A stretch of 31,348 bases of DNA from Saccoglossus kowalevskii. Its lineage: Eukaryota; Hemichordata; Enteropneusta; Harrimaniidae. Positions 5,891 to 31,348 of the stretch are shown here, one piece after another; within the stretch, counting starts at the first letter, position 1; the number at the start of each line of letters is the position of its first letter. The notes below the pieces were generated by a model that saw only the letters and a list, made by a program, of their open reading frames with translations, was not told the origin of the DNA and did not search any database. The stretch lies in assembly GCF_000003605.2 (NCBI RefSeq), contig NW_003116448.1, positions 780,148 to 811,495 of the forward strand, written 5' to 3'. Both the position numbers and the translations under genes were made by a program.

Positions 5891-5927
5891 TTAATTGTTT
5901 TAAAAACATTTAATTAAATCATATAAT

Positions 5928-6133
5928 GTGGAATACTTTATTTTCGCTGGAATTAATTTTCGCTGAAAAGGTTTTTTGGGCGTTTTGTATGGAATTTATT
6001 TTCACTGATTTTTGATGAGCTTAATGTGAAATATAGGAAAAAATGTATATTTGCTGGATTTTATTTTCACGGAATCATCCCTTCAGCGAAAATAGCGAAA
6101 ATAAATTCCAAGTGAAAATAAAGTAAAATACAG
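5928..6133 (+). mobile_element. Palindromic MITE family A, copy 1
   Basis: The ~50-bp ends are reverse complements of each other (left GGAATACTTTATTTTCGCTG; right ending AAATAAAGTAAAATACAG) with repeated TTTTCGCTG blocks. Near-identical copies lie at 22152-22363 (opposite orientation) and 29306-29514. There is no coding capacity. The element is very likely a non-autonomous DNA transposon. Confidence 0.85.
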
Positions 6134-6224
6134 TAATTTGACATGAATTTTGATTTGTAAATTCAATTCAAGATGGCCGACTGACAGCCATTTTGCTTTT
6201 GACTAATTCTTTTCCAGACAGTCA

Positions 6225-6852: not shown

Positions 6853-7156
6853 TAAAGTACACAACAGGAACTGTCCATTGAAAAGTGCTTGTTTTATCTG
6901 CTTTTAGCTCTTCCCCTTTAGAAATAATGGTTTGACCCTCATATGGCTTGTCCTAAAGTACACAACAGGGACTGTGCATTGAAAAAGGCTTGTTTTATCT
7001 GCTTTTAGCTCTTCCCCTTTAGAAATAATGGTCTGACCCTCATATGGCTTGTCCTAAAGTACACAACAGGGACTGTGCATTTCAAAATGCTCGTTTTATC
7101 TGCTTTTAGCTCTTCCCCTTTAGAAATAATGGTCTGATCCTAATATGGCTTGTCCT
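6853..7156 (+). repeat. 101-bp tandem repeat, three copies
   Basis: Copies begin TAAAGTACACAACAGG at 6853, 6954 and 7055, and each includes TTTTAGCTCTTCCCCTTTAG and ATATGGCTTGTCC. They differ at only a few bases, so the triplication is fairly recent. Confidence 0.93.
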
Positions 7157-8392
7157 AAATCTAGATTCAACTAAAATCAAAGGCAGTGCCTTAGAGAACT
7201 TGGATAAACATAAACTTGAACATGACCTTAGCTAAATATGCTGCGCTTAATAATGTCATCTCTCACATTGATCAATTTCACGCATAATTTATTATTATTA
7301 TTCTCATTTACGCCTTCTGTGTTGGCCAACAAAAAATATAATTTCCATATACATCATGTGGGGTGACGTTTGAAAAAAATATTATTTCGTACTTAGTGGC
7401 TTAAATATATAAATTGTGTGCTTGAAGAATGCACATTGGTAATCAATTTAAAAAATTAAAAACAGAGAAGTTTATTGTCAATATCATGTCTCAGTTAAAA
7501 GTAATTTTTTGTGTGTAGCATATATCATGATTTGTAAAAAGCTAAATTTTCTTGAAAAAACTTTAAATATGTTCAATCCTGGTATATAAATATACCCCAC
7601 TGAGTAGGCGGTGACAGTGAAATATTTCTTGGCTTGTTAGAAATTAACTTCATGGGCTTAGAGCACTTAGATAAAAGCAAGTGTTTATAGTTTTAGTCCA
7701 TCCCCTGTACTCTGGCATTATTAAAAAATAATGAGATGCCGTGATTAAATTTACCAAGCGTCAAAGTACATGAAGTATGTTAAATGAGTCAAGAGTTTAT
7801 CTCCCAAAGAATGCTGCTCGAATTAATATCTCTCTGTAAACACATCAAAAGTATTTTGTAATCTTATGAAAAGTTGAATGATTAAAGATTTAGAATTCTT
7901 GAATTTACTGTTATTAGAATTTTGTATACATTTTTTGAGATCCATATTGAACACGGTGACGCACTTTGAGTGTGAATAGATTTTACTTGTTAGCGTACAA
8001 TGAAATATTTTGATTATACATGTACATGTATTTGCAATTTTACCTTGTCCATGTCATTGTATTTGTAGATGAAGGTCAAGGTATGCGAGGAGAAAATGTC
8101 TTTCCTCGTTGTTGCTGTCATCTTCATCTCCTCGTAAACTTTTTATCTGATTTTTTTCAAACTTGGATATTATATTGATCAGTTTGTGCTCTTGGCCAAG
8201 CTTGATTTTGGTTTGTATTCTATTTATATTTTTCAAGATAATCATTAAATTTCACCTAAAATTGTCTTCTTGTGGTTACAATAACACAATCAATTTGTAA
8301 CTGATCATCTTCAAATTTGGAAATCGTATCACTCCTTATGAAATGTCAATCAATACATGGTTTTCCGTTCAGCTGCGCGATCTCATGAGTTG
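7157..8392. other. AT-rich non-coding stretch
   Basis: No gene recognised. The part around 8060-8330 holds words of the dispersed TTCAAACTTGG-type repeat. Confidence 0.45.
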
Positions 8393-9980: not shown

Positions 9981-11160
9981 AATCACTGCTAGGAGTCAAT
10001 CACTGATTTGAGTCATTAATCACTGATTTGAGTCCATTAATCACTGATTTTAGTCATTAATCATTGATTTAAATTAATAATCACTGACTTGAGTCACTAA
10101 TCACTGATTTAAATTAATAATCACAGATTTGGGTCATTAACCTCTGATTTGAGTCATTTACCACTGATTTGAGTCATTAATCACTGATTTGAATTAATAA
10201 TCACTGATATCAGTCAATATTCAATGATATTAGTCAATGATCACTGCTAGGAGCCAATCAAAGATTTGATTCATTAACCACTGATTTTAGTCATTAATCA
10301 CTGAGTTGAGTCACTAATCACTGATTTAAATTAATAATCATAGATTTGGGTCATTAATCTCTGATTTGAGTCATTAACCACTGATTTGAGTCAGTAATCA
10401 CTGATTTGAATTAGTAATCACTGATATCAGTCAATATTCAATGATATTAGTCAATGATCACTGCTAGGAGTCAATCAAAGATTTGATTCATTAACCACTG
10501 ATTTGATTTAACCACTGATTTGAGTCATTGATCACTGATTTGAATTAATAATCACTGATATCAGTCAATATTCAATGATATTAGTCAATGATCACTGCTA
10601 GAAGTCAATCAAAGATTTGATTCATTAACCACTGATTTTAGTCATTAATCACTGATTTAAATTAATAATCACTGAGTTGAGTCACTAATCACTGATTTAA
10701 ATTAATAATCATAGATTTGGGTCATTAACCTCTAATTTGAGTCATTAACCACTGATTTGAGTCACTAATCACTGATTTGAATTAATAATCACTGATTTTA
10801 GTCAATATTCAATGATATTAGTCAATGATCACTGCTAGGAGTCAATCAAAGATTTGATTCATTAACCACTGATTTGAGTCATTGATCACTGATTTGAATT
10901 AATAATCACTGATATCAGTCAATATTCAATGATATTAGTCAATGATCATTGCTAGGAGTCAATCAAAGATTTGATTCATTAATCACTGATTTCAGTCATT
11001 ACAATTGTAGAGGTGTTGCTAGCAAATCCTATTTTTGTAGCATTATATAGTACAAAGCTGATTGAAGAAAAGCATAGTGTTAGTGTTATTAATAATCATT
11101 GATTTGAATTAATAATCACTGATTTTAATCATTAATTACTGATTTTGATTAACAATCACA
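9981..11160. repeat. Satellite-like array of ~20-bp monomers with higher-order structure
   Basis: Monomers such as AATCACTGATTTGAGTCATT are repeated for about 1.2 kb. A diagnostic variant block, ACTGCTAGGAGTCAATC with AAAGATTTGATTC after it, recurs at 9985, 10243, 10460, 10594, 10831 and 10948. The spacing (258, 217, 134, 237, 117) reveals uneven higher-order repeats that grew by unequal exchange. A single-copy break at about 11000-11090 precedes a last few monomers. There is no coding function. Confidence 0.93.
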
Positions 11161-13130
11161 GAACTCAACCTTATATAGTAAACAGTGTTTATAGCAACCT
11201 CCACAAATTTCCCCACACAGATAAATGTTCTTTGTATAAAGATTGTGTAATTAATTATTGAAAAACAATATACCAATAATTTCCATGTTTAAATTGTATT
11301 TTGTCAACATTTCATGTATTTGAAAAAATAAATAAAAATTAAATGTCAATGCAGAGGATAATTAATGTGAATTGCTGAACATCTTTCATCATGTTGACCT
11401 TTGTACACAGTGTTAAAAGGGTGATCGCATTAGACTGGTGGCTTTTAATATAAAGGTCACATACATGTGAATTACGCTGGGACTAATCAAAGATGGTCTC
11501 TATGGGCAGTTGGTCTTTCTTGACTAACACAGGTTTGGATGTATTTGTTGATGATATGGGGTTCCATTTTCGATATACTTATAAATGTACTCCATTCCTT
11601 AAGTTGGAAATTAATAGTTTGTGATTTGGCTATAGTGTACTGGTCTCTGAATCATTTTGGATTATATGACTGTATGGAAAAATGAGTTAAAATACAGCAA
11701 TAAAGTGTGGTTACTAGTAATCCAACATCAAAAATCTGATCCAAGATTGTTTTCCAACCCTTATATACTAATAGATTTCTTCCAAAAAAACAGCTTAAAA
11801 ATATGGAATTATAAGAAAAAAACACACCAATAAAGCATTTTTTAAAAATTATGGAATCCACCTTTCTGTAGTGAATACCATAGTGGTAACTACTTGTAAG
11901 TGACCTAATAGAAACATCAATTACAAGCTTTGGCAGAGAACTAATGGGTCCCACCTTGCATATCTCTTGATACATCCAGCTCATTACTACTATCTGTTAT
12001 ACCGGTAGTCAACAATTTCTCAAAATTCATTAGTAAATAATGAAATTTATTAACTATCTTCCAGAATAATAATGATAATCATACAAAAGGAAACAAAAAG
12101 CTCCAAACTCTGTCTGGTATTAAGACTGGCCTCAATGAGTTCTGTAAATAAAATGAAATAAAGAATAATGTATTTATGTTGATACATGAATAATAATGTA
12201 CTTGTCTGAACTTTTGTCTGTGGTTTTGGTCTCACCAACGATTTGAAATCTTATAAAACCATACTCTGAGATTGAATAAATACTCTAGAAGAAAATTGTA
12301 AAAAAATCTGGAAATTGATTTGTGTGCTTGTTCTCAATAATGAAGTTACAGGCCCAGTACACAATGCTAAATATCAAGTATCATTACTAATGTTTGTTAT
12401 AGTCAACAACTTCTCAAAATTCATCTATAAATAATAATATTTATTAACTTTCTCCCAGAAAAATAATAATAGTCATACATGAAACAACAAAAACAAAAAG
12501 CTCCAAGACTTGCATTAATGAATTGGGAAGGGAAGTGACATAGGTTTTTAGCTCATAATGGAAAAATTTATCTCTTGCACTACTGGTTCTAAAATTATTT
12601 ATATGAATTTCTGCTTTGTTAAATAAATACAGTCACATAGTCCTGTATGCTGGGCAATTAATATCAAAGTGTTGTTTATCTTCAACTTTGTTTTGTGTAC
12701 ATTAGTCACATGTTTTAGAAATGAAACGCTAAATCCTCTGTTAGGTCAATTTTTGCATGGGAGGGAACTCGGGTGGAGGGGAGAACCATCAAACTTTTGA
12801 AAAAAATTGCTGCTGGAGGAAATCTCAAATAGAATGTATTTCTAGAAATAAAATGTATAGAACTAGAAATACAAGGTGGTTTGTACTTGCAATATATATA
12901 GAAAATGGTAGTTCTTTATAGTAAGGTGTTTCTATGGTCAAAATAATTTTGATTATAATGGTTCAGTATAACATATAGTTATATGCACTAAAATTCTTCA
13001 ACAAAGCTACATGTCCCTTGAGCAAATTTTCCTGAATACACAGAATTTACAAAATCCTAATTTAGCTAAAATGCTAACAACTTACTTTCTTATAAATTAG
13101 CGACATCTTGAATTAGCTTTATAATTAGTG
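11161..13130. other. Non-coding stretch with one old duplication
   Basis: About 11985-12105 and 12375-12510 share the phrases AGTCAACAA, TCTCAAAATTCAT, ATTTATTAACT and AACAAAAAGCTCCAA in order, a diverged ~120-bp duplication. A 110-codon minus-strand open frame at 11652-11984 lacks any recognised domain and is not called as a gene. Confidence 0.5.
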
Positions 13131-13337
13131 TACTGTAAAGAGGTCAATTATTCACTGGGTTTTAATTTAGTTAATTTCGCTGACTGAAAAATGCGCTAAA
13201 TTAAAACCCAGTGAAAATGTAAAATTGAGCATAGAACACATTATCTATCTAAACCGTGAATTTAAAACCTACTGAGTATGCCTGAAATGGCAAATCAGCG
13301 AAATTTAAACCCAGCGATAATTAGTCATTTTACAGTA
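13131..13337 (-). mobile_element. Palindromic MITE family B, copy 1
   Basis: The element runs from TACTGTAAAG to TTTTACAGTA, with ACTGGGTTTTAATTTAG and complementary AAATTAAAACCCAGTG arms, plus an interior with GAACACATTATCTA. Reverse-oriented relatives lie at 22904-23082 and 23768-23979. Confidence 0.85.
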
Positions 13338-14429
13338 ATATAACATTCTAGCTAAAAAGGCACGTTTTACATACAGTACACTGTACTGATGGAAATACAG
13401 TTGTAGAAAGAGACTGTACTTACCAAATTACATGTACAATGTAAATATATATATAAGTGCACATGTTGTGTGTTTGTTAAAACAGTAAACATGACCCTAT
13501 GGTGTGATATGATTGCACATTTCGTAGTCAAAACTATCTGCATATTGACATCAGATATCCATTTAGCTTTGTTCACTATTTCTCTGTATTCCTTGTTATT
13601 CCATTATCCACTGTATAGTGTAAATCAATAAATTTATGCCCAATTGTTGCTGCTGGATATTATGATGCCTTTTATACAGACTATTTACTAATTGTCTTCA
13701 CCAAAACCGCTGCTCTTCAGAGATAGTGTTAGAAATAACTATAACATTTCACGACTGACTCTGACTCATCGAATTCACCTCTCGCCGAATAAAACAGGTT
13801 TGTAGCGTTTTTGTTGATACATAGTTGTTGATAACAAAGTCGATGACAGTGTATACTCATAAAATACTATGGACCTTTGACTAGAGTTAATTGGATGTTG
13901 CCTTTAGGCTTGGCGTGCCGCGAGTTTTTTAGTTATTAGTTGAAACTAGGTTCTGTGGCGCCAAATTTGTTAGCGTATCGGTTGTTAGGTGACTGCATCT
14001 AGCAGCAACATCAGTTAGACTTTAATAATAGGACTGAACTTTGTTAACCTGAAAAAAGTTGTGCCACCACCTGTCACAATATAGGTTGATTTTAAAATTA
14101 TATTTCCTGTATATTGATTCCTCTATTAAAGCCAAGCTTGCTGAGATTGCTAGCATTTTCTGTGTATTCCTTTATTACACTCAATTACACTCCATTAATT
14201 AACTGAGATGGTATTCCTGGATTGAAGATGACCTTTATGAGTGAAGATAACCTCAACAAGTCAAATTGTTACACGTGTATCATTGTTAAGATCGCAGCTA
14301 GATTAAATACCATTGTAGTTCATTCACCTTGTCTCGTATATGTGAACGTTCTCCAGTTGCGTGACTATGTGACTATGATTGTGAAGTGTAACCTATCTAG
14401 ACAAAACACTCTAGTCTTTCATACTTTCA
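13338..14429. other. Non-coding stretch, part mildly CpG-enriched
   Basis: About 13750-14000 has more CpG and GC (TCTCGCCG, GGCGTGCCGCGAG, GTGGCGCC) than its neighbours. It could hold a promoter or an unrecognised 5' exon of HLCS. No start codon and donor pair could be supported. Confidence 0.35.
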
Positions 14430-16877: not shown

Positions 16878-19800
16878 GTAAGTCAATGATTTCTTTTGAG
16901 TAAGTCAATGATTTCTTATGAGTGAGTCAATGATTTCTTATGAGTGAGTCCATGATTTCTCATGAGTAAGCCAATGATTTCTGATGAGTAAGTCAATGAT
17001 TTCTTAATTAAGGTCATTCACAGGCATTTGACCTACCAGTAATAAAGAGGGGCAACAAATTCATCACAATATTTTTGTTTGTGTCACATACCGGTAATTA
17101 TCGATTTCGACATATGTCATCAGTTTTTTTTTATGGTTTACCTAATGAGCAATACTGAGAAACTGACTGAAAATATGTCTATAGGAATTTATGATGAAAC
17201 ATTATTTCATTAAAAAACAAAAAGTATTCATCAACAGAATTTCTAATAATTTGTGACAACCATCAGTATCAGCATAAAACTTCAGGTAAACCAAAATTAA
17301 TTTAAACTTGCTATCAAAATTACTCAAGTTGGGTTAATGATGCATTTCAGTTTTGTTCAAAATGGCTGACTGGTGACCATTTTTTTATGAGTATTTTTCT
17401 GTTTTCTCAGATATACTTTCACAGATTTTGTTAAAGTTTAGTACAAAAAGGCAAGACGAAATGGGTTGCATGTTCTCTTTAGCTATTTTTGGATTCAGGG
17501 AAAGTTTAATTAATTGTCAGGTAAATCTATAAGAAAAACTAAAATCACAAATGTTTCCCTGGCATGTCTGGTCTGGTCTGGTCTGGTTTCATTCAAACTT
17601 GGTATGAACAACACTCATGATTTTGATTTGATTTGATTTGATTTGATTATAATATAACATAATTTTAATACACTACTATTACATCAGAGGTTACAGTGTG
17701 GTATTTTAAACACATCAGTACAACAAATGGAAGAATCTCTTCAACCGTTTCTCAGATATATCTTGGCAGAGTTTGTTTAAAGTTGTTACTTAGACATAAA
17801 GCAACACAATTCTCACACTGTACCATGGGTGTCTTGTGACTTAAACAAGTATGTAAAATGAGTTCATTGTTTATGAACAAAATTTGTACACATTTGTGCT
17901 TTACTAGAGGTTCCAGCGAACTTTATTATTAAATCATGTTTTGCACCATTTTATTTCCATAAATTTTTCATAATATCAATTCTGTAATTTTCATAAATTA
18001 TTAATAATTTGGGATGAAATAAAATGTTTTAGATTTAATAAGTAATAAATGGGATGCAAATTTGTGAGCACAAATAGAAAAACCAGTTTATACAATTTTT
18101 TGTTGTATTGCATACACTCATTGATAAGTTTCGTTTTGTTTGATTCACAGGTGTCGGCATTGAAGGTCATGCATTCACATTACTTGAATATCTACCGGGG
18201 AGACAGCGATCACCATGTACTATTAAGGGGGAGAAAAGTCGGAGGCGGAGATCCAAGCTTATGGAAGAATCTCGGAGGGAAGGCTCGCAATTATCGAACC
18301 ATACCACGTCTGCAACCTCACCCACCGGAAATAGCACCTTGTCACTATCACCTCAGTCAGCGGGACCACAGAAACATCTCCGCAGGCGACACTCCCCGCT
18401 GTTTTTGAGAAAGATGGAAGAAAAACAACGCTCACAGGAGTCATCACCCATGTCTAGTACAGCCACATCTCGTAGAGGATCGCAGGACTCTATGTCATCA
18501 GGTATTGAATTTTTGATGGACACATCGCATGACAGTACGGGATCCGCAGACGTCAACGCTATGTCAAGCATTACAAAAAGGAAGGGAATTCAGAAGCCAC
18601 CTAACGTACTGGTGTTCACAGATGACAAATCAACAAACAAAAAACTATCGCAAGTGAAAAGTATGTTAGATATGTGTCTTGAACGGAACTGCTACACTGT
18701 GTACAATATTAACAGCAGTAAGCTCGTCTCACACCCATGGATTGACAATACTGTTGCGTTAATCATCGCAACACAGGTGGAGCTCTCAGACAACGTGAGG
18801 GACATCTTGATGAGATACCTTTACAGGGGAGGACGAGTACTCAGCCTGTGTGGCCATTTTCATGTGGGACTCAAAATGGAACTTAACCCAGACAGAACAC
18901 TTGTTGAAAATATTGTATATAATTCAATAGACAATAGCCAAACTATGAACTTGGCAGTGAATTGTACGCGATATAGCTATAGACTTTCTAACATAGCGGG
19001 TCACAACGTACACGTGTTAGGTACGATGCAAGATAAACCCGTACTCTTACATGTGAATGTCGGCGAGAGTGGAATAGCCGTTCTTTCTCAGGTAAATTAT
19101 AAATGATTATACATAGAGATGCATGATACATGTAAGTAAATTATCATTTCACTAGAGAAACAATTGCAATTGTCATATCGAAAAATTTAGTGTGTTTATA
19201 TGGTACTAGAAAACACACCTAGAAAATCTACTAGATTGTGAAGAAAATCATCAATAATATTAATTTTTTTAGTGCCAAAGTCAACTTTTGTTATCAATGT
19301 TTTTTTTTTTCAAAATTTTGATCAGGATGTGTAGCCAATAAAAAATTAAGTCCATTTATGCAAAAAAAAAAATAGAAAAAATACATGAAAAAAATAAAAT
19401 GATGTAACAAAATTAGGTTGCGCAAAGGTTAAATTTAAAAAAAACAATAACGTGCAATGGTTTGATTATATGTGTATAGTTGTAGTAGATATCTACGTAC
19501 ATGGCATACAGAGCCCAATGCCAAGATCTCACTGAATCACAAAACTTTGTCTCCAAATAGAGTTCCATTCTCGCTTGTCATTATGTTGATTGTTCCAGTT
19601 GCTATGGTTAGTTACACACATCAGTGGAACAGTAGATGTGATGACGAAATAGATTGGAACACTATTCAGTATCAGTGTACATGAGTTTTGAATGGCGCAG
19701 GTTTTAAAAAAATAGGTGAAAAAAAATATTGAAATTTTTCGCATTCATACAGGACCTTACAGTATGTATATAGCCATTCACATCGCTGACTTTGTGTTTG

Positions 19801-22800
19801 AATGAATGCGGAGCTTGACTGATAAGAACTTGTATATTTTGTTGCATTTGGTTCTCAAAGGCACCAACCATGAAAAATATATTGGGGTATTTTTTTTTAG
19901 ATGTTCGTTTCTCTACATTTTCAATCACCTGACAAAAAAACAATAAAAAAAACAAAAATTTATCTCTGGTCAGCATGCATCTGTTCAACAACACTAGACC
20001 TGTATTTTGTATTCATGGTGTGAAACCTATATCTAAATTCTGTGAAATCTTACTTAACTTTAACTCCTCACTGATGACATCTGAGTCTGATTGACATCTA
20101 GGGTGACCTCATGTTGTCATGGGTCATCAAATGTAATGGAGAATCTTTGGACCATTTGATCTAAGACTCCCTAAGTTTGTGTTTCTAAATGCTTCTATCT
20201 GTCACTAGAGGGCACTCTCCAATTTCTCCACGTACTGTGTGTGCAGTTGCTTTGTCACTAGATGGTGGATAATTGATTTGCAGAGTTGCTTGTATACTAA
20301 TTAGTTAATTTGCATTAATCATTTGATGAATAATATTATATGGATTTACATGACATACCTTGCCTAGATTTTTCAGGTTGTATTTTGCCATGGCCAAACT
20401 GGAAAATAGGCACTTTTCCGCTCTACTTGAAATTCTTCGTTTTTGAACCAAAATGTCAACCTACCTGTACATGCAAGATGTGGTGTTTTGTTGAAAAATA
20501 CTCTCATATAACAGTATGGGCCAAGCAGTACTGTGGAATAATAATTTGAGAATAATTATTTAATTTTCATAAAATAAAAAAATAATTTCTACCTATCTAC
20601 CCTACGTTTCTTTTCAATGTTACCAGAAACTCATTATTAATTTTATTTGATATATGTACCTTTTCCTTGAGTCATGCTGCCAGCCACTGCAATAAGACCA
20701 ATATCTTTTGGTACCATATTCTGTAAACTAAAAAAAAACAAAAATATTTTTATATTTTGCACATGAAGTTTTTAAATTGTTAAATAAATGTAATTGTACT
20801 TGTCGTAAGGGTAGTTAGTAGTAAGTTTGTAGTCACTTATTTAAATTTTTTGGAAGGTTGTCATCTACTTAATTATTCATATATTGGGTTTTTATTCATC
20901 AGGTTTATTTAGAAGCTACTGCAGGTGACAAAGACTCCTTAGATAAAGAAACTTTTACCAGACTTAAAATATCAAATCCTGCCCGTCATCGTGTCTGGTG
21001 TGATCTACTCGGCTACTTGGGTTTGAAAGTCGGACAGAGTGAACCGCCAGCATTAACGCCATGCTATCTGTTATGCAAAAACAAGGTAGGTTCTGTTCAG
21101 TATTGATGTCGGTCATCTGGCGCCATTGGTGAATTGCAGGGACGTTGTCAGGGTCATTCTATAAGGAATGATGTTTAACAAATAAAGTATATTTTCCCGA
21201 TCCTAAATACCTTATATGCCTGAACAATCGTCGGGGTCAGTAAAGTTTACTAAATCACCTACCAGATAATCTGTGGAAATAATAAATTTCATTTATTACT
21301 CATTAGGCTTAATTACAGATTACAGCTCCAAACGGAACTACTAGAGAATATACCTGGGACCACCCTAGGTTAACATTCTCTAAGAAAAAGGCCTCACCGA
21401 AGGGTTCACTCCCAGGGCAATTATGCACAACCCTAATAATTTGCAAATTGAAGTAATCATCGAAAGTTAAACTGTTGTGCAGAAATCTATTCTGCATTTT
21501 ACTAATAAGCCACCATAGGCACTTCTGTGCGGTTGTGTCAACAGTATAGGAATACTATAGAACTATAGAATACTGTAGCATCAAAAGTCGTCAAAAATAA
21601 TCAGAAGTTTTGGTGTAGTTCGTAAAAACCTAATTTTTTTTTTCTCTTATTTAATAAACTTCAGAGTTTCAAAGAAAAGCTTTTGAAGTCATTGGCAGAG
21701 AAAGTGAATGGGGACCAAATACTGAAAGGGTCACAGGTCAGCCTTCATTTTGTTGATGCAGCAAAGGATGCTGGGACTGTGTCTGCTGACCAGTTACCGG
21801 TGGTAACCAATGAAATCATGAAGTCTGGGAGTAGTTTTGATATAGATGTTTATTGGGATAATCTAAGCGCTAAGAATCTTGGTACAGTTTTGATGTATAC
21901 TGAAGTAGTGCCCACCACTCAGCTCATCTTTCAAAGGTTAATTAACATTAACTTCTCTCAAAAATAGTTTTCAATACTGCCTGTTAAATACCAACAGTAG
22001 GGTGAAACTCACAATGGTCTAAACTCAGCCCACATTTCCGGCCAATCTTGCAACATTTTGTAAAAAAAAAATTTCGGAAATTTTTTTAATAATTTTAAAC
22101 CAAATAGATGTACCGTAGTTTCCTATTGGATGATCAATTTTTTAAAAAAAATACTGTAGAATACTTTATTTTCGCTTGGAATTTATTTTTGCTATTTTCG
22201 CTGAAGGGATGATTCCGTGAAAATAAAATCCAGCGAATATACTTTTTTTCCTATATCTCACATTAAACTCATCAAAAACCAGTGAAAATAAATTCCATAC
22301 AAAACGCCCAAAAAACCTTTTCAGCGAAAATTAATTCCAGCGAAAATAAAGTATTCCACAGTATGTCAAATGACTTTAGTATTCACAGAGTTATTGCATT
22401 CTCAGAATCTCAAGGAAGGTTTTCCTTCCGTGATGTGCTTTGCATCATGGGAAAACAAATTACAGAAGAACACAACTCAGCAAATCAAATTTGTTGCCAT
22501 ATTTCATCAGCTAAAATAAAATAGATGACAGACATTGATGACCAATATGACGCCAAACACTCAATAGACATAATGACTGCTTATTATTATTATCCCTCAG
22601 GATTTTTGAAATCACTTTCCAGCGAAATTGTTCATTTTTTTTATGGTATATGTATAAATGTATACAAGAACAAAATATCTGTTCTCACTTCAGTTGTCCA
22701 CTTTCTTGTCAAATCCACTGTCTTAGACTAGGATATCACAGCCACATTGAACAAATTGCCTAGATTTGGCAGCCATATTGAAAATCATATGCTAATGCCC

Positions 22801-25800
22801 TTGAGTCAAAGTAAAGCTTTTTACAAGATTGATCCTGATTGGACTACCCAACTGTAACACCTAACAATCGGGTCAGCTAGTTTGATGACAGATAACCTGT
22901 ATATACTGTAAAATGACTAAATTTCGCTGATTTACCAATTCAGGCATATTCACAGTTTTATCATTTAGATAATGTGTTCTATGCTAAATTTGACATATTC
23001 ACTGGGTTTTAAATTAGCGCATTTTCCAGTCAGCGAAATAAGCAAAATTAAAACCCAGTGAATAATTAATCTTTCTACAGTATGCTTTGACTCAACTGCA
23101 TACCTTTCATCACATACTTTTGTAATTTGACTCTAGAGGGCGACATTTCTAATTACAATTTTCAGTCAATTTTCGTTTTTTTTAGTTTACAGAATGTGGT
23201 ACCAAAAGATATTGGTCTTATTGCAGTGGCTGGCAGCATGACTCAAGGAAAAGGTACATATATCGAAAAACACATGACATTATTTCTTTCATTTTATCTC
23301 CAACAAAAACATGAAATGATTAGAACCACATGTATTTTCAGGTCCTTTTATTTAATTTTGTTTACTAGTATAAAAATACAGCTGTATGTCATTTGATCTG
23401 ATGATAGTTGCTTAATGTTTTTTCTAGGACGTGGCGGTAATACATGGTTAGGTCCATCTGGCTGTGCCATGTTCTCTCTGTTATTAAATATCCCAGTACG
23501 TACAGAGCTAGGTCAAAGGTTACCGTACTTACAGCATATAGCGTCCCTAGCAGTTGTTGAGGCTGTGTGTAACTTACCAGGTTATGAGGTAAGTGAGCGC
23601 TTTTTTATTCGCATGTTGATTTCCACATAAAGTGTAATTGAAGTGTAATACCAAGTCTCCATCTTGTTATCCTCTGGCATATAAGTGCTGGAGGCAGGGT
23701 GGCGTGGGGGGTGTTATTAAACATTTCACAATTTCCTAGACTTTACTATTAGTTTTAGGTATAATAGTACTGTATAATGACTTAATTTTCACTGGGTTTA
23801 AATTTCACTGATTTACCATTCCAGGCATATTAAGTGGGTTTTAAATTCATGGTTTTATCGCTTAGATAATGTGTTCTATGACAAATTTTACATATTCACT
23901 GGGTTTTAATTTAGTGCATTTTCTAGTCAGCGAAATGAGCAAAATTAAAACCCAGTGAATAATTAATCCTTTTACAGTAAATTACTTCTTTTATAAGCAA
24001 AAATATACATTAAAATGCCCCAATTGTGCATGTTTGTGATGATGTCATAGCAACAATAGTACCAGGATGTGTGACCCTTAGGGGTCATGAAAGTGATCTA
24101 TAATCAGATAATATTCATAATACAAGTTGAATTATGTCATCATTCTCTATGTGGGTCACCTGATGGAATATGACATATATTACGTTTTTTTGTTTGATGC
24201 GAATATATTTTAATGTCCCAGATTTGACCAAGGGAATTATGGTTACAGTAAATTACTTCATTTGTATTGAGTTAATTTAGTTTGACTCTACATAAAACAA
24301 CAATTTGGCTTACTCAGTGCTAGAACAGAGAATTTTGCTGAATAATTTCTACAAAATCATTTTTTGTTGTACCAAATAGTTTTGCCATTTCATTGAACAA
24401 GAAGGTTTTGTTTTCACAGGGAATAGACTTGAGGTTAAAATGGCCCAATGATATTTACTATGGCAGCGAAATGAAATTAGGTGGTGTTATCGTCAATTCA
24501 ACGTATTATTCCACTGAGTTCCGTGTTGTTATAGGTAAGGTGAAAGGGCATGATATCATTCGATGATGAATGCAAAGTGGCACTATGTTGAATTTCTTTA
24601 ATCTTAATCTTGTTAGCCCCCATACTTTACATTTTCTTGACCATATAGATGTGAGGGTTAAAGTAGTGTTTCTATTTTGTGGGTCCATAGCTCGTCTTTG
24701 TGATGGTATTTTAGTTATTTCTGATATATTTTGCGTCATTAAATTTGTTATTTTTGGACATTAGGACTGTTATCGACACAGACGAGCTACGGTTCCTCCC
24801 ATAGACTTGCGTAAAACAATCGTGCAACACCAAATGGCATCGCGAATAAAAGTTGATAAAAGCAGAATATTTTTTTGCATCACACCATCGAAGCTATTGC
24901 CAATCGATAATATGTTTATTAAACTTTCACCAAAGTCAAAACCGTGACAAAAATCATTAGTTTGTTTCTACAGTATTATGATTCTTAACCGTAATAATAT
25001 ATAACTTTTCATGCAAAATTTTTGGAGATATGAAGGAATATTCCCACTATAGGATCCAGTTTGAAAATGATAATTTTTACCATTTTTTATCATATTTCGG
25101 ACTCTTGTATCATCTTGTGACACCAAATTATTTTTTCATTTTCGGTATTTTGATGATATGAACTCATAATGACAGTATGACGAACAAAACATATAATTTC
25201 AAACTCGCCTCTGTCTTTCCCATTGAGTGTGTGGCACATTCACACAGGCTTTGGATTCTGTTTTGTCCTGTTGAACCCTGGGTATTATTTGAACCCTTAG
25301 TCCAGTGCAAAAACACTATGCTATCGATAACTAATAGATCATATCAGTTCACTGCGAGATCCTGTGTTATGCGTGAAATCGAACATAAAAACAGGACAAA
25401 CAAAGGTCATAGTGTCGTAGTGGCGACAAATATCGCGTGGGATTCGACAAACGCGAAAGTATTTCAGGGGATATTTCCATGCTTAGTAATGTGCTATAAA
25501 CATTTAATGATGGTAAATTTTGATGAAGTATCCAAATGCAACATTGCACTGACAAAGATCGGCCTTTCAATGTTAGTTACAAAATAAAGAAATTCAAGTT
25601 CAAAATCAAATTGTTTGATTTTTGCGGCAGATGTTACATGTAGGTATGCGTCTTTCAGGAAAATCACCTGTTCTAACTCAATATTTGTTACAATATTCCC
25701 TGTTTATAAATACTAAAATTACAAATTATGACATTATACTGACACTTGTGTCCAGAGATGTATAATATGCATATACTCACCATGTGTTGGTATTACAACC

Positions 25801-27105
25801 TCCTGGTGGGATCAAAGTAAATTAAAAACCTCATTTTATTATTTTATGTACTCCTAGGTTGTGGTTTCAATGTAAACAACAGTGACCCAACCATATGTAT
25901 TAATGATATAATAGAGCAATACAACAGAGATCAGGGCACTACGTTAAAGAAGATCTCAATTGAACAGCTGATTGCACGCACTGTGTCCAACATAGAAAGT
26001 ATAAACCAGGAGTTTATGGACAATGGCAAAGACTTATTTTTGTCTCGATATTATAAAAGATGGCTTCATAGGTGAGTTAGATTAGATATGCACCAGTACA
26101 TGTACAATGGGAAATCAAAAAAATGATATTAGTGTGCTGAATTAGTAGCATGGTAATACGTCAGTATATAACAAATGAGATTTTTGGTTTATGTGCGTGA
26201 TGTTTGAGATGTTTGCAATATAAGCCATGAGTTTAAACAGCTTGACTGGAAATCATATTTTGCTATGTTAAAATCATGATTGCCTGATTTACCCAACAAA
26301 GATCGGAAATTGAATTATTGCCTTTCTGGTTCTAGTAACTGCAAGATTTGTACTTCACTTGTCAAGGGGCATGTTGTTTAATACACAAGATATATATCTC
26401 GCATGAACAAAGATAGCGACTTCGGCCCGCAGATAAGCGATTACAAACTGACTGAAACATTACCAATTGGAAGGTATCAAAGAAGTCATTGGCAGTATTT
26501 AGTGCAAGTGGTGCCCAGGTCAAAGCTTGTCCTTGTGATTTCATTAGAAAAGCGCATTGAATTGTGGAAAAATCAATGTTTATCAACATAAATGTTGCGC
26601 ATGCACAGTGCAACGGCCACTGCTCTTTAATATCTGTATGGTTCTAATTATTGCCAGCACCAGGTGCTGAAGTTGTTCAATATAGTCAAGCTTGGGAAAT
26701 TTTGTCTCATAAAACAATATTACGTGAAATAGGCACCATGGATTTTGAAATTATCGTTTAATATTGTATCTTGATATAAACAATATAATATGATTTATCA
26801 TTCAATAAAAATGTTGTTTTTCTGGAAAACGTGGTGATATAATGAAAAATGCAATTTGTGTACTGGTATATGTGCATGCATCCTGAAATCATAACAGATT
26901 GCATATTATATTGTTATATTTTCATATAAACAGTGATGCTAGAGTTCGTTTGGAGAGTGAGAATGGACCTGAAGTGACCGTTATTGGCCTAGATAACCAT
27001 GGCTATTTGTCTGTTCGTAATGAATACAACCAATTATTGAGTGTGCAGCCGGATGGCAATAGTTTTGATATGATGAAGAATTTAATTATAACAAAGTCTC
27101 AATAA
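16556..27105 (+). CDS. HLCS: Holocarboxylase synthetase (biotin-protein ligase), nine visible coding exons, 5' end missing
   Basis: The enzyme activates biotin with ATP to biotinyl-AMP and transfers it to a lysine of biotin-dependent carboxylases (acetyl-CoA, propionyl-CoA, methylcrotonyl-CoA and pyruvate carboxylases) in cytosol and mitochondria. Nine exons (16556-16877, 18151-19091, 20903-21085, 21665-21936, 23186-23253, 23428-23588, 24420-24534, 25858-26071, 26934-27105) have AG/GT borders. They join without frame breaks into 2448 nt, which is 815 codons plus TAA. Numbering visible residues from 1: Ser/Arg-rich linker about 140-250, BPL_N-like domain from about 255, GRGGN at 596-600, KWPND at 656-660, KLGG at 668-671, GCGFN at 688-692, C-terminal BPL domain about 759-815. 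Human HLCS is about 726 residues with longer isoforms known, so the length fits a long form. No in-frame ATG lies at the start of the first visible exon, so at least one upstream exon is probably missing. Confidence 0.95.
16876..17007 (+). repeat. 22-bp minisatellite, six copies, starting at the HLCS exon 5' splice site
   Basis: Six units start at about 16876, 16898, 16920, 16942, 16964 and 16986, each of the form GAGTAAGTCAATGATTTCTT with small changes. Unit one contains the real exon/intron junction (GA/GTAAGT). The other units repeat it as GTAAGT, GTGAGT, GTGAGT, GTAAGC and GTAAGT. Use of the second donor would add 22 nt and shift the frame. Later ones would include an in-frame TAA at 16901. 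Confidence 0.9.
17008..18150. other. HLCS intron, remainder: simple repeats and dispersed repeat words
   Basis: Includes GGTCT repeats (about 17567-17586) and GATTT repeats (about 17622-17647), and fragments of the AAATGGCTGAC-type dispersed repeat near 17345-17420. No exon is seen. Confidence 0.6.
18151..19091 (+). CDS. HLCS: HLCS large exon: Ser/Arg-rich linker and BPL_N-like domain
   Basis: This is the largest exon, covering visible residues 108-421. It follows acceptor GATTCACAG at 18150 and ends at CTCAG/GTAAAT (19091). The first part (to about residue 250) is low-complexity, rich in Ser, Arg, His and Thr, with basic runs such as SRRRRSK and LRRRH, and looks disordered. From about residue 255 it becomes a folded domain: [10 protein letters not shown], then HPWIDN near 304, IIATQ, and RGGRVLSLC at 333-341. 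These line up with human HLCS segments of the APNILLY, DPWTDN, VIATR and QGGKVLGL type. This is the N-terminal (BPL_N, glutamine-amidotransferase-like fold) domain of eukaryotic biotin ligases, thought to help recognise carboxylase substrates. Short ORFs in other frames across the Ser/Arg-rich part are shadows. Confidence 0.95.
19092..20648. other. HLCS intron, AT-rich part
   Basis: A palindrome-rich block at 19529-19744 and short open frames on both strands are not supported as genes. The antisense exon copy follows. Confidence 0.55.
20649..20743 (-). repeat. Antisense copy of HLCS exon 5 with both splice sites
   Basis: Read on the minus strand, 20727 down to 20660 matches the 68-bp exon at 23186-23253 in 67 of 68 positions. 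The one difference is GTG to ATG in the fourth complete codon equivalent. The copy also includes the T-run plus AG acceptor and eleven bases of the donor side (GTACATATATC). Similarity stops abruptly about 15 bp outside the exon on each side. It lies in the intron 19092-20902, opposite in orientation to the gene, about 2.5 kb upstream of the source exon. It cannot be spliced into the sense mRNA. Confidence 0.93.
20903..21085 (+). CDS. HLCS: HLCS coding exon 3 of those visible
   Basis: This exon encodes visible residues 422-482 in phase 0 at both ends. The acceptor is TTTTTATTCATCAG at 20902 and the donor AACAAG/GTAGGT at 21085. The residues VYLEATAG at the start continue the AVLSQ at the end of the previous exon, as in human HLCS (AVLCQVHLE). 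The stretch [10 protein letters not shown] matches the conserved PALTPLYLL of vertebrate HLCS. It forms the tail of the N-terminal domain and the connector toward the catalytic domain. It lies only about 160 bp downstream of the antisense copy of exon 5. Confidence 0.94.
21086..21664. other. HLCS intron (579 bp)
   Basis: No exon or named repeat recognised. Short reverse-strand open frame 21309-21497 has no support. Confidence 0.6.
21665..21936 (+). CDS. HLCS: HLCS coding exon 4 of those visible
   Basis: This exon encodes visible residues 483-572 plus two bases of 573. The acceptor is AATAAACTTCAG at 21664 and the donor CAAAG/GTTAAT at 21936. Recognisable segments are [15 protein letters not shown] and [13 protein letters not shown]. 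They match human HLCS phrases of the type LSLRFV, IPVVTN and VILFAEVTPTT, the last being the entry into the catalytic biotinyl-ligase domain. An alternative reading through the donor would end at a TAG 28 bp further on. The frame carried into the next exon supports the splice. Confidence 0.93.
22152..22363 (-). mobile_element. Palindromic MITE family A, copy 2, inside an HLCS intron
   Basis: TACTGTAGAATACTTTATTT to the end AAAGTATTCCACAGTA is the reverse complement of the copy at 5928-6133 with few differences. Shared inner words are CCTATAT, CATCAAAAA and CATACAAAACGCCCA. It provides the spurious 80-codon open frame at 22282-22524. Confidence 0.88.
22904..23082 (+). mobile_element. Palindromic MITE family B, copy 2, inside an HLCS intron
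   Basis: Runs from TACTGTAAAATGACT to CTACAGTA, with ATAATGTGTTCTATGC and AAATTAAAACCCAGTG. It ends about 100 bp before exon 5. Confidence 0.85.
23186..23253 (+). CDS. HLCS: HLCS coding exon 5 of those visible (68 bp)
   Basis: This very short exon encodes residues 573-595 with phases 2 and 1. The acceptor is a run of eight T then AG (23185) and the donor AAAAG/GTACAT (23253). It reads [17 protein letters not shown] and ends MTQGK, matching the human stretch ending TEGK directly before the GRGGN biotin loop. Skipping 68 nt would shift the frame and destroy the catalytic domain, so its inclusion is critical. An almost identical copy in reverse orientation lies at 20660-20727. Two foldback elements (22904-23082 and 23768-23979) flank this exon and the next. 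Confidence 0.93.
23428..23588 (+). CDS. HLCS: HLCS coding exon 6 of those visible: biotin-binding GRGGN loop
   Basis: This exon encodes residues 596-649. The acceptor is TTTTTTCTAG at 23427 and the donor TATGAG/GTAAGT at 23588. The first complete residues are [13 protein letters not shown], the biotin/biotinyl-AMP loop equivalent to GRGRRG in E. coli BirA and GRGGNVWLSPVGC in human HLCS. It is followed by SLLLNIPVR, then [20 protein letters not shown], the core helix of the ligase fold. All expected residues of the loop are present, so the enzyme should be active. Confidence 0.96.
23768..23979 (+). mobile_element. Palindromic MITE family B, copy 3, inside an HLCS intron
   Basis: Runs from TACTGTATAATGACTT to TTTTACAGTA in the same orientation as copy 2, with matching interior words (CCAGGCATATT, AGATAATGTGTTCTATG). 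With copy 2 it brackets exons 5 and 6. Confidence 0.85.
23980..24419. other. HLCS intron remainder
   Basis: AT-rich, with no exon or named repeat recognised. Confidence 0.55.
24420..24534 (+). CDS. HLCS: HLCS coding exon 7 of those visible: KWPND and KLGG motifs
   Basis: This exon encodes residues 650-687 plus one base. The acceptor is TTGTTTTCACAG at 24419 and the donor GTTATAG/GTAAGG at 24534. It contains [11 protein letters not shown] and [10 protein letters not shown], the signature motifs of biotin-protein ligases. The KWPND segment lines the ATP/biotin pocket. The lysine of KLGG (visible residue 668) corresponds to catalytic Lys183 of E. coli BirA. The match to human [19 protein letters not shown] is nearly residue for residue. 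Confidence 0.97.
24535..25347. other. HLCS intron with a local inverted repeat
   Basis: TAGCTCGTCTTTGTG near 24689 and CACAGACGAGCTA near 24776 are nearly complementary and form a hairpin with a loop of about 70 bp. Nothing else is recognised. Confidence 0.5.
25348..25658 (+). repeat. Dispersed ~310-bp repeat family C, copy 2, in an HLCS intron
   Basis: The inverted counterpart of 8393-8706, diverged by scattered substitutions and small indels. Open frames across it on both strands differ from those of copy 1, so it is not treated as coding. Confidence 0.75.
25858..26071 (+). CDS. HLCS: HLCS coding exon 8 of those visible: end of catalytic domain
   Basis: This exon encodes residues 688-758 with phases 1 and 2. 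The acceptor is GTACTCCTAG at 25857 and the donor CATAG/GTGAGT at 26071. It opens with [18 protein letters not shown], the conserved segment closing the active site (human GCGFNVTNSNPTICIND). It then runs through a helical stretch, [14 protein letters not shown], to the YYKRWLH that precedes the C-terminal domain (human YYRYWVH). Confidence 0.96.
26072..26933. other. HLCS intron with an unexplained open segment
   Basis: Around 26400-26620 both strands are open (plus [20 protein letters not shown], and a minus frame of 83 codons) and composition is less AT-biased. The flanking HLCS exons join perfectly without it, so it is not an HLCS exon. It may be a transposon remnant or an alternative exon. 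Confidence 0.4.
26934..27105 (+). CDS. HLCS: HLCS last coding exon: C-terminal BPL domain and stop
   Basis: This exon encodes residues 759-815 and the TAA stop at 27103-27105. The acceptor is TTCATATAAACAG at 26933. It contains [18 protein letters not shown] and [14 protein letters not shown], matching the human end [13 protein letters not shown]. This is the small SH3-like C-terminal domain (BPL_C) that helps ATP binding and acceptor-domain contact. The protein ends TKSQ, at about the same place as in human. The stop codon lies within an AATAAA hexamer (27101-27106), and a minisatellite starts about 10 bp later. Confidence 0.96.
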
Positions 27106-27116: not shown

Positions 27117-28312
27117 ATTAGCTGATTGGTTGTTTTGAATTTGTTGTAGTAGCTGATTGGCTGTTTTGAAATTGTTTAAATAACTTATTGGCTGTTTTGA
27201 ATTTGTTGTAGTAGCTGATTGGCTGTTTTGAATTTGTTGTAGTAGCTGATTGGCTGTTTTGAAATTGTTGAAATAACTTTTTGGCTGTTTTGAATTTGTT
27301 GAAATAACATATTGGCTGTTTTGAATTTGTTGTAGTAGCTGATTGGCTGTTTTGAATTTGTTGTAGTAGCTGATTGGCTGTTTTGAAATTGTTGAAATAA
27401 CTTTTTGGCTGTTTTGAATTTGTTGAAATAACTTATTGGCTGTTTTTGAATTTGTTGAAATAACTTATTGGCTGTTTTTGAATTTGTTGAAATAAATCAT
27501 TGGCTGTTTGGAATTTGTTGTAGTAGCTGATTTGCTGTTTTGAATTTGTTGTAGTAGCTGATTGGCTGTTTTGAATTTGTTGTAGTAGCTGATTGGCTGT
27601 TTTGAATTTGTTGTAGTAGCTGATTGGCTGTTTTGAATTTGTTGTAGTAGCTGATTGGCTGTTTTGAATTTGTTGTAGTAGCTGATTGGCTGTTTTGAAT
27701 TTGTTGTAGTAGCTGATTGGCTGTTTTGAATTTGTTGTAGTAGCTGATTGGCTGTTTTGAATTTGTTGTAGTAGCTGATTGGCTGTTTTGAATTTGTTGT
27801 AGTAGCTGATTGGCTGTTTTGAATTTGTTGTAGTAGCTGATTTGCTGTTTTGAATTTGTTGTAGTAGCTGATTGGCTGTTTTGAATTTGTTGTAGTAGCT
27901 GATTGGCTGTTTTGAATTTGTTGTAGTAGCTGATTGGCTGTTTTGAATTTGTTGTAGTAGCTGATTGGCTGTTTTGAATTTGTTGTAGTAGCTGATTGGC
28001 TGTTTTGAATTTGTTGTAGTAGCTGATTGGCTGTTTTGAATTTGTTGTAGTAGCTGATTGGCTGTTTTGAATTTGTTGTAATAGCTAATTGGCTGTTTTG
28101 AAATTGTTGAAATAACTTTTTGGCTGTTTTGAATTTGTTGAAATAACTCATTGCCTGTTTTGAATTTGTTGTAGTATCTGATTGGCTCTTTTGAATTTGT
28201 TGCAATACCTGATTGGCTCTTTTGAATTAGTTGCAATACCTGATTGGCTGTTTTGAATTAGTTGCAATACCTGATTGGCTGTTTTGAATTAGTTGTTAAT
28301 AGCTGATTGACT
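27115..28312. repeat. 31-bp minisatellite, about 38 copies, directly downstream of HLCS
   Basis: The unit reads approximately TAGCTGATTGGCTGTTTTGA followed by ATTTGTTGTAG. The centre (about 27500-28090) is nearly homogeneous. The two flanks hold diverged versions with AATAACTTTTTGG or GCAATACCTG segments, typical of an array growing in the middle. The array contains no gene. On the minus strand it stays open in two frames only because 31 is not a multiple of three and no phase of the unit contains a stop. Confidence 0.95.
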
Positions 28313-29305
28313 GTTTGAAATATGCATGAGCTGTGATTGCCTGTTTATTAATATTTTTTTTTTTCATATTTGAAAATTTCAAATAGTTGATTACATTGTA
28401 TCATGAAATTCCAACAATTACCTTTCTTCTAGAAAGTTAATCATTTACACCTTTATCCCTGTTCTATGAATATCAACCACAAGTGATTGTTATAGCCCCC
28501 TCATGAGTCCATTTAAGAAAATCTCTGATTCTAGATCTGGAAGGAGACTGCCCTCTACAGTTGTGAGGTTTGAATGCATGGCTTTACTTTCAACTAATAT
28601 TCCAATTAAAGACACATTAGCTGTAACTTTGTAGCAATTATTAATTTTTTTCAACCCAGCATTTAGTTATAATATCTATACTTTTTCATCACAACCTCAT
28701 TTACTTAACACCCTGGATACTCAACTCCAACAATCATGTTTCAGGTGGCTGGCGCCAATACATTATTATACAAAATTGTACAAATAGCAATTTTTACTTT
28801 GTGTCAGATTAGGGGGAATATTACGTTTTTTTGGGAAAAACAAAATTGTGAAATGAGTTGCTTTGTCTTTGATTCACACAACACTTTTACAATGACGAAA
28901 CTGAAATAAAATTTAAACAAATATGCAAATTTTATTCTAACATTGTTTATATACCATCTGTATTTATAATGTAAAAATTATTATAGTCCGTTAGAACACA
29001 GTCAAAGTCAAAATCTTCATCATCATCTTCGATTGTGTTTGATCATACACAAACTTTTGTTGCAAAGCAATTTTTCCATAATATTTTCTGAATCATTTGA
29101 CCTGCAACAACGTCCTTTGACCTAATAGGTCAAGTCTGTTATTTACCAATATGAATGCTTTGTTGTACTGACGTAATGCCCCAAGTATGCATTCTTGTAA
29201 TGCAAAGCGAAAGTGAATTACCAATTTTGAAGTATGATCTTTTGGAAATAAAGCCATAATATTTTTCAAAAATTCATGATTAGCATTTGTCTGGAAAAAA
29301 ATATT
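28313..29305. other. AT-rich intergenic DNA downstream of HLCS
   Basis: No exon recognised. AATAAA at about 28905 and 29248 could act as distal poly(A) signals of HLCS if the 3'UTR is long. Confidence 0.45.
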
Positions 29306-29514
29306 TACTGTAAAATACTTTATTTTAGTGAAACTAATTTTCGCTGAAAAGACTCTGGGTGTTTTGTATGGAATTTATTTTCGCTGATTTTTGATAAGTT
29401 GAACATAAAATATAGGAAAAAAAGTATATTCGCAGGATTTTAATTTCACTGAATCATTTCTTCAGTGAAAATAGCAAAAATTAATTCCAAGTGAGAATAA
29501 GGTATTTTACAGTA
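29306..29514 (+). mobile_element. Palindromic MITE family A, copy 3
   Basis: TACTGTAAAATACTTTATTT to GGTATTTTACAGTA, in the same orientation as copy 1 (5928-6133). The interior GTGTTTTGTATGGAATTTA and AAATATAGGAAAAAA words are shared. More diverged at the TTTCGCT blocks than the other two copies. Confidence 0.87.
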
Positions 29515-29996
29515 TTTATCATTTTTCACTGTCATCAACAGATTATTGTCAAAAAATACAATATTTATGGCAGTCAATATCCATGCTGTATTGATTACTA
29601 GTATTTGGAAAAGCTTAACAATGTCCAAAAACCAGGTTTTATGACTAAACGGTTAAATATGGTACATTTCAGAAAAAAAATTGCTATTTAGTCAAATGTG
29701 ACCTCAAAAATATAAAGGCCCCAAATGTAGGTAGTACTTGGTGCTTAGTCAAGCTTGGGTGCTAAATTAGACTACAGTATTTGATTTATATACAACTCAT
29801 GAGAAGACAAAATAGTAATAAATATTCATAACAGTCAGGGAAAAATAAAAATAAAAATGTTGAGGTGGTTTATTCAATGGTACAACTTATGTTCAATATT
29901 TGCCTTTTCACTACCAGACGTCTCACCAGTGGTGGTGAAAAAATTAATACATTTATCCTATATTGCTTTGCAATCACTTAACTTCCTCTGAAACAG
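29515..29996. other. AT-rich intergenic DNA before the candidate downstream exon
   Basis: No gene or named repeat recognised. Confidence 0.5.
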
Positions 29997-30168
29997 AAAA
30001 CAAACATTTCAGCATTCTACCATACATGGCACACTTTTCTGGAGCACAATATTGCAAAATCTGTGATCAGTATATCTTGAGTACAAATCCCTCCTCGGGT
30101 TCAACTTTCAACCCTGGAGTGTGTGTGTTACAATTACACAAAGGAAGGCCAGAACCACTGTACCCTGG
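29997..30168 (+). CDS. Candidate internal exon of an unidentified gene downstream of HLCS
   Basis: An open frame with protein-like composition includes SGAQYCKICDQYIL, NPSSGSTFNPGVCVLQL and GRPEPLYPG. It is bounded by a plausible acceptor (CTTCCTCTGAAACAG, AG at 29995-29996; a second possible AG at 30012) and an excellent donor CCTGG/GTGAGT at 30168. The CKIC pair could be half of a zinc-binding site. I do not recognise the family. The exon is in the same direction as HLCS and would belong to the next gene, since HLCS already has its stop. Its final ~25 bp are homologous to the 49-bp minisatellite that follows. It could instead be a chance open frame, although the coding-like texture and good borders argue for a real exon. 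Confidence 0.45.
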
Positions 30169-31348
30169 GTGAGTGTGCTATAGACTCAATGGGAAGGCAA
30201 ACCCCACTGTACCCTGGGTGAGTGTGCTATAGACTCAATGGGGAGGCAAACCCCACTGTACCCTGGGTGAGTGTGCTGTAGACTCAATGGGAAGGCAAAC
30301 CCCACTGTACCCTGGGTGAGTGTGCTATAGACTCAATGGGAAGGCAAAAGCCACTGTACCCTGGGTGAGTGTGCTATAGACTCAATGGGAAGGCAAACCC
30401 CACTGTACCCTGGGTGAGTGTGCTATAGACTCAATGGGAAGGCAAACCCCACTGTACCCTGGGTGAGTGTGCTATAGACTCATTCGGAAGGCAAACCCCA
30501 CTGTACCCTGGGTGAGTGTGCTATAGACTCAATGGGAAGGCAAACCCCACTGTACCCTGGGTGAGTGTGCTATAGACTCAATGTGAAGGCAAACCCCACT
30601 GTACCCTGGGTGAGTGTGCTATAGACTCAATGGGAAGGCAAACCCCACTGTACCCTGGGTGAGTGTGCTATAGACTCAATGGGAAGGCAAAAGCCACTGT
30701 ACCCTGGGTGAGTGTGCTATATACTCAATGGGAAGGCAAAAGCCACTGTACCCTGGGTGAGTGTGCTATAGACTCAATGGGAAGGCAAAAGCCACTGTAC
30801 CCTGGGTGAGTGTGCTGTAGACTCAATGGTAAGGCAAAAACCACTGTACCCTGGGTGATTGTGCTGTAGACTCAATGGTAAGGCAAAAACCACTGTACCC
30901 TGGGTGATTGTGCTGTAGACTCATAGGGAAGACAAAAGCCACTGTACCCTGGGTGAGTGTGCTATAGACTCATAGGGAAGACAAAAGCCACTGTACCCTG
31001 GGTGAGTGTGCTATAGACTCAATGGGGAGGTCAAACCCACTGTACCTTGGGTGAGTGTGCTATAAACTCAATGGGAAGGCAAAAGCCACTGTACCCTGGG
31101 TGAGTGTGCTATAGACTCAATGGGAAGGCCAAAGCCACTGTACCCTGGGTGAGTGTGCTATAGACTCAATGGGGAGGTCAAACCCACTGTACCCTGGGTG
31201 AGTGTGCTATAAACTCAATGGGAAGGCAAAAGCCACTGTACCCTGGGTGAGTGTGCTATAGACTCAATGGGAAGGCCAAAGCCACTGTACCCTGGGTGAG
31301 TGTGCTATAGACTCAATGGGGAGGTCAAACCCACTGTACCCTGGGTGA
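30140..31348. repeat. 49-bp minisatellite, about 24 copies, running off the right edge
   Basis: The unit is built around CACTGTACCCTGGGTGAGTG then TGCTATAGACTCAATGGGAAGGC. Starts of ACTGTACC at 30157, 30206 and 30255 give a period of 49. Variation is mostly in the last bases (CAAACCCC, CAAAAGCC, CCAAAGCC, GTCAAACCC). Toward the right edge, three consecutive unit types repeat as a ~147-bp higher-order block (about 31020 onward). Every unit contains a GG/GTGAGT donor-like sequence. The first unit overlaps the end of a candidate exon. Confidence 0.95.

Follow-up and report, generated by a model that had tools for sequence, protein, structure and literature searches.

In 1985, Solnick reportedly found that an engineered complementary stretch that placed an exon within an RNA secondary structure changed the splicing of that exon. 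The HLCS gene of the hemichordate Saccoglossus kowalevskii contains a natural arrangement of this kind, an inverted, nearly identical copy of exon 5 in intron 2; the complementary stretch altered splicing in the Solnick experiment and might do so in HLCS, but that of HLCS is natural and the one in the Solnick experiment was engineered. Inverted copies of exons in introns of their own gene are already known, the described case being DMD. The DMD inverted duplication reported in PMC10949565 resembles the HLCS copy in that an exon is copied in reverse orientation into an intron of its own gene; however, the DMD duplication is a patient rearrangement that the source calls likely pathogenic, whereas the HLCS copy is about 95 bp long, is found in a genome assembly and is located at the end of a repeat. 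In the DMD case described in PMC4303224, an exon is inverted, with 2-bp microhomologies, whereas HLCS contains an extra copy. More generally, the rearrangements that these and related reports attribute to FoSTeS/MMBIR and short-range template switches (PMC2621351, PMC4303224, PMC7954356) share with the HLCS locus a reversed local template, A/T-rich tracts and perhaps the scant microhomology, although in HLCS the switch points cannot be reconstructed without the ancestral sequence.

At the RNA level, the closest described systems are pairs of intronic Alu elements in opposite orientations and the reverse-complementary matches associated with circular RNAs. The Alu pairs, as described in PMC2533698, are similar to the HLCS pair with respect to the possible intramolecular duplex, exon skipping and editing, but both of their arms are intronic repeats, whereas one of the HLCS arms comprises a coding exon and its two splice sites. 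The matches described in PMC8330042 bracket the exons between their complementary arms, as the HLCS arms do; the HLCS pair differs in that its downstream arm is not purely intronic and in its length, as the zip-2 pairs given in that report measure only 7 and 13 nt.

An inverted copy of exon 5 within the HLCS gene

The window (the whole stretch of DNA that was analysed, 31,348 nt) carries HLCS, the gene for a biotin-protein ligase. The open frame at 18144-19106 contains a match to BPL_N (PF09825, E-value 1.7e-6), and a translated stretch for which exons 4-8 were joined by eye matches BPL_LplA_LipB (PF03099, E-value 8.7e-27), with exon 5 inside the match. A 252-aa stretch matched 22 PDB sequences, mostly named biotin ligases, and a PDB search with a 77-aa piece yielded 0 matches at the threshold of 0.001. 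Exon 2 ends at 19091, as read from the open frames, and exons 3, 4, 5 and 6, when joined, form one open frame (the exon numbering is that of the original prediction; see Table 1 for the features). In the home assembly, the PF03099 profile matches only exons 6 and 7 of HLCS (2 of 2 matches), which argues against a second HLCS locus or a haplotig, in a search that takes exons one by one and could be escaped by a diverged or fragmented paralogue. Known RNA genes and tRNAs were also rejected as candidates, with 0 Rfam matches at the gathering score and 0 tRNAs found with ARAGORN.

Table 1. Coordinates in the window of the exon 5 copy, its source and the adjoining features of HLCS
Feature	Position	Strand	Basis
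MITE-like repeat, right terminal repeat fused to the exon copy	20357..20649	+	43 matches listed, 20 loci compared
Antisense copy of HLCS exon 5, flanked by the acceptor tract and by the first 11 nt of intron 5 with the donor GT	20649..20743	-	repeat scan, genome search, gapped alignment
Stretch of intron 2 that separates the copy from exon 3, unique in the search	20744..20902	+	query 20744-20903 matches only itself
HLCS exon 3, bracketed by the arms	20903..21085	+	frame with exon 2 suggests a start at 20903 (the frame test used 20904)
HLCS exon 4, bracketed by the arms	21665..21936	+	open frames, frame joining
Counterpart of the copy: exon 5 with its acceptor tract, its donor and the adjoining 11 nt of intron 5	23169..23264	+	gapped local alignment, 94/97 columns
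HLCS exon 5, 68 nt, source of the copy	23186..23253	+	preceded by AG, followed by GT, in frame with exons 4 and 6
HLCS exon 6, encoding the GRGGN loop	23428..23588	+	open frames, PF03099 profile, frame joining

A gapped local alignment identifies 20649-20745 as the reverse complement of 23169-23264, with 94 of the 97 columns identical and the remainder made up by two substitutions and one extra T. The original prediction, that an antisense block matches exon 5 at 67 of 68 positions and also carries the T-run and AG of the acceptor and 11 nt beyond the donor, is borne out by this alignment. The copy lies in HLCS intron 2, approximately 160 nt before exon 3. In a repeat scan of the window, the inverted pair appears as 20643-20743 and 23170-23270, i.e., 101 nt that are 95% complementary, with 2426 nt between the arms, both of which sit in A/T-rich sequence. 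The exonic substitution is a G in exon 5 and an A in the copy (in the exon orientation); the second one, C in the source and T in the copy, is located at a CG in the acceptor tract and would fit the decay of a methylated C.

The similarity between the copy and exon 5 is far beyond chance. A search of the 572,110,611 bases of the home assembly with a 131-nt query around the copy, using a procedure that skips very common words, identifies two matches, namely the query itself (E-value 3.4e-61) and, on the other strand, HLCS exon 5 (E-value 5.1e-38, 95% over query positions 14-114). The right neighbour of the copy (query 20744-20903) likewise has a single match in the home assembly, itself. In a sample that consists of the window and the 200 kb upstream of it (one contig, 128,258 non-N bases), 104 local pairs were detected with a gap of at most 6 kb, a length of 50-600 nt and an identity of at least 88%, and the copy and exon 5 form the only inverted pair among these. 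Of the 103 direct pairs, one has two copies in the sample, and the others, mostly tandem arrays, have three or more. With relaxed limits (gap of at most 10 kb, at least 35 nt, at least 80%), the same sample contains six inverted pairs, four in the window, including that of the copy and exon 5, and two upstream, at 87% and 81%.

The window contains several other repeats. The segments 5923-6139, 22148-22364 and 29306-29517 are three copies of one repeat; the first two of these are inverted relative to each other, 94% complementary over 217 nt and 16 kb apart, so that the locus has further long complementary pairs. Another repeat family (TATTCACTGGGTTTTAA...) is represented at 22918-23082 and 23764-23987, in HLCS introns 4 and 6, and in reverse at 13123-13341. 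Long minisatellites occupy 27119-28316 (31-bp unit, 38.5 copies) and 30143-31348 (49-bp unit, 24.6 copies), and the minus strand of the 31-bp array is open over long stretches, presumably only through the repeat structure. Arrays of a 20-bp unit are found within 9998-11159, with 51.0 copies at 9998-11001, where a 217-bp higher-order period is superimposed, and 3.6 copies at 11088-11159; three tandem copies of a 101-bp unit, with 94% matches, make up 6853-7159.

The adjoining repeat and the origin of the copy

A search with the 519 bases to the left of the copy lists 43 matches, of which 40 were scored and one is the query itself; most of them lie within query positions 224-519. Twelve of the 43, again counting the query itself, end at 20648, the last base of the query. 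Twenty family loci were fetched by picking down the list, not randomly; 16 of them have a best match to the window that stops at 20643-20654, and in the other four it stops at 20577, 20584, 20621 and 20664. The right end of the family is TTTGGCC in eight of the 20 loci and a one-base variant of this motif in six more (14 in total: L028, L030-L034, L037-L040 and L043-L046), with such an end lacking in L029, L035, L036, L041, L042 and L047. The family consensus is approximately 340 bp long and has terminal inverted repeats (GGCCAAAT...ATTTGGCC); being short, bounded by terminal inverted repeats and present in many copies, the family is MITE-like, and the flanks of the fetched copies, read by eye, gave no consistent target-site duplication. 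The element in the window ends at TTTG, without the final GCC of the family, and the antisense exon starts at once. Most of the family ends run past TTTG and the window element stops there, so that the left edge of the block is a transposon terminus. The limits originally given for the block were good, but what had been taken for an abrupt end on the left is the terminus of the MITE-like repeat, which had been overlooked. The left terminal repeat of the window element is unrecognisable, and the predicted hairpin is accordingly weak (DNA fold of -26.6 kcal/mol, compared with -46.2 kcal/mol for the trimmed family consensus).

These features bear on how the copy arose. The copy extends into intron sequence at either end of the exon, and its template was therefore DNA or an unspliced transcript. 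A retrocopy of spliced mRNA is rejected because the copy retains the acceptor tract and 11 nt of intron 5. The fragment is not cargo common to the repeat family either; its only two matches genome-wide are the copy and exon 5, so the family did not bring it in. Gene fragments captured by Pack-TYPE or Helitron-like transposons are located within the ends of the element and are multiplied with it. Here, the fragment is outside the right terminal repeat and has no other match in the genome, and the 160 bases to the right of it match no repeat, which argues against this type of capture.

The copy is probably a local inverted duplication, a piece of filler that was made by template switching or break repair at the MITE-like end and persisted as a tolerated accident. 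Under this scenario, approximately 95 bp, running from the last part of intron 4 through exon 5 into intron 5, would have been copied in reverse orientation into intron 2 and placed directly against the terminus of the MITE-like element, with the filler synthesised, most likely, by template switching at a stalled fork or by break repair at the inverted-repeat end. Template switching or filler synthesis at the element terminus would explain why the left edge is sharp, why the copy is reversed and why its source lies nearby. As in template switching and MMBIR, the block reproduces, in reverse complement, a neighbouring sequence that has itself remained in place. The microhomology at the left junction is a single shared G, or else an imperfect TTTG/TTCG match, and that at the right junction is an A-rich similarity. 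In the MMBIR model, microhomology junctions are followed by stretches copied from elsewhere, and cruciforms or hairpins are listed among the sites of single-stranded DNA (PMC2621351); in the great-ape template switches described in PMC7954356, poly(dA:dT) tracts are enriched around the switch points. The copy, the lack of other relatives in the assembly and the repeat junction are directly observed; the mechanism of copying and the tolerance of the copy, which was probably not selected, are inferences. The original preference for a template switch over transposition is thus supported in the sense of local copying, by the two matches genome-wide.

The abutment of the copy and the repeat could be a coincidence, given that no exon-like filler was found at the ends of the 20 other copies (approximately 1.5 kb of flank on each side, 69,839 non-N bases). 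The scan of these flanks detected two inverted pairs. One, of 42 nt in L029, starts about 30 bases beyond the element but is inside another repeat (TACTGTAGAATAC...); the other, in L040, measures 38 nt. Direct pairs were found in L028, L035, L039 and L045. The base rate refers to 128 kb of one contig and 70 kb of repeat-centred loci. The weak hairpin of the window element and the very short microhomology at the left junction also weigh somewhat against filler synthesis at the element. A random 95-bp block would, moreover, rarely contain the whole of exon 5 together with both splice dinucleotides (by plain arithmetic, in 24 of approximately 31,254 placements in the window), which likewise counts against an accident, although it was this very feature that drew attention to the copy.

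The divergence of the copy was compared with that of the element. The element differs from the consensus of 16 other copies (L036, L042, L045 and L047 were left out of the 20, and the poorly aligned left end was excluded) at 22 of 286 sites, compared with two of 94 for the copy (Fisher p = 0.083) and one of 68 for the exon alone (p = 0.095); neither comparison reaches significance, and we propose no relative order for the two insertions. An older copy could have been kept similar to its source by gene conversion between the arms, and the adjoining element, at 22 of 286 from its consensus, is indeed set against a copy only two substitutions away from the exon 5 block; this is nevertheless improbable because, at these p values, one recent event suffices. 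The high identity of the copy would be equally expected of a recent neutral event.

The reversed piece could also have been placed in intron 2 by a chimeric read or contig, in an assembly in which 103,090 of the 200,000 letters upstream of the window are N, whether as gaps or as withheld stretches. Such an artefact is, however, very improbable: the window itself is free of N, two substitutions and one T distinguish the copy from exon 5 and its flanks, and the copy is only about 95 bp long and located exactly at a repeat end, whereas a chimera would usually be identical and longer.

Predicted consequences for the HLCS transcript

According to RNAduplex, pairing between the arms has an energy of -161.3 kcal/mol and covers exon 5 and both splice sites, whereas the best energy among random 101-nt pieces taken from 18000-26000 (60 draws, less those that began close to the arms) is -43.1 kcal/mol and their mean is -25.5 kcal/mol. 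In the minimum-energy fold of 20300-23700, 92 of the 101 bases of the copy pair with the exon 5 arm; the native fold has an energy of -914.9 kcal/mol, compared with -804.5 to -816.4 kcal/mol in four folds with the copy shuffled, i.e., shuffling costs 98 to 110 kcal/mol in four trials. Skipping of exon 5 would shift the frame and lead, after four codons, to a stop (...FQRTWR-stop). These computations agree with the original prediction of a long, near-perfect pre-mRNA duplex over exon 5 and both its splice sites and of a frameshift upon skipping, and the coordinates confirm that the arms bracket exons 3 and 4. The built-in switch, the circular RNA and the editing of the original prediction are unsupported.

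If intron 2 has not yet been removed from a nascent transcript by the time exon 5 is synthesised, the long duplex could form. A minority of the transcripts may be edited; a minority may skip exon 5, with the ensuing frameshift, early stop and decay; and a minority may skip or circularise exons 3-4. Such RNA-level effects on splicing, circular RNA and editing are plausible, each of them as a prediction from the pairing. The energies carry no information on timing, and intron 2 may already have been spliced out when the polymerase reaches exon 5. HLCS is presumably an essential gene, which makes it unlikely that exon 5 is blocked by the duplex in the majority of transcripts.

With respect to editing, the genome contains six matches to the adenosine-deaminase domain (A_deamin, PF02137), two of them full length in stop-free frames. 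This domain is also present in ADAR relatives such as ADAT1. The two full-length matches (G000:C4122:1096975-1097934 and G000:C4125:150476-151444) are in single uninterrupted frames of 754 and 570 aa and possibly represent intronless gene copies; the other pieces include those at C3995, which are apparently split by introns, and one at C2610.

The pair of arms could function as a selected cis-antisense switch, in which pairing, possibly controlled by editing, sets the proportion of productive HLCS mRNA and of a skipped, decaying form. This is highly unlikely, even though the predicted duplex covers the whole of exon 5 with both splice sites and dominates the predicted fold, skipping yields an early stop, adenosine-deaminase domains, two of them full length, are encoded in the genome, and, as reported in PMC2533698, an opposite Alu pair in one intron shifted a downstream exon from constitutive to alternative. 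The identity of the copy fits a young neutral copy equally well, the distance of 2426 nt between the arms exceeds the 2000 nt used for dsRNA-forming pairs in the Alu paper (PMC2533698), and intron 2 may be spliced out before the transcription of exon 5. Furthermore, a lone antisense Alu in that paper gave almost total skipping unless its partner was present (PMC2533698), so that pairing does not simply mean more skipping. There is likewise only a slim prospect that HLCS is a natural, single-gene case of a sequestered exon turned into a regulator, in which the output of HLCS would be set by whether intron 2 removal, or editing or unwinding of the duplex, occurs before exon 5 is made.

Alternatively, the pair could act mainly as a reverse-complementary match that promotes back-splicing or joint skipping of exons 3-4, a role that requires no selection and is compatible with an accidental origin. 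The arms bracket these exons, and, in Caenorhabditis elegans, deletion of such matches lowered both circular and skipped transcripts (PMC8330042), while circles formed by complementary matches are described as modulated by ADARs (PMC8938519). The downstream arm, however, is mostly exon with its splice sites, so that the pairing that would drive back-splicing also covers exon 5, and this role appears doubtful, if somewhat conceivable.

The tolerated accident, then, is the reading that we favour. If the copy is fixed in the species, HLCS would be a natural test of splicing in a situation where a coding exon can fully pair in cis, and a single gene would show in which order introns are removed and the duplex is edited or unwound; if the copy is polymorphic, individuals with and without it would provide the control. 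The locus further suggests a way in which long duplexes specific to one gene can arise, through an event at the end of a transposon; such duplexes would be raw material for the evolution of hairpin RNAs or regulated splicing.
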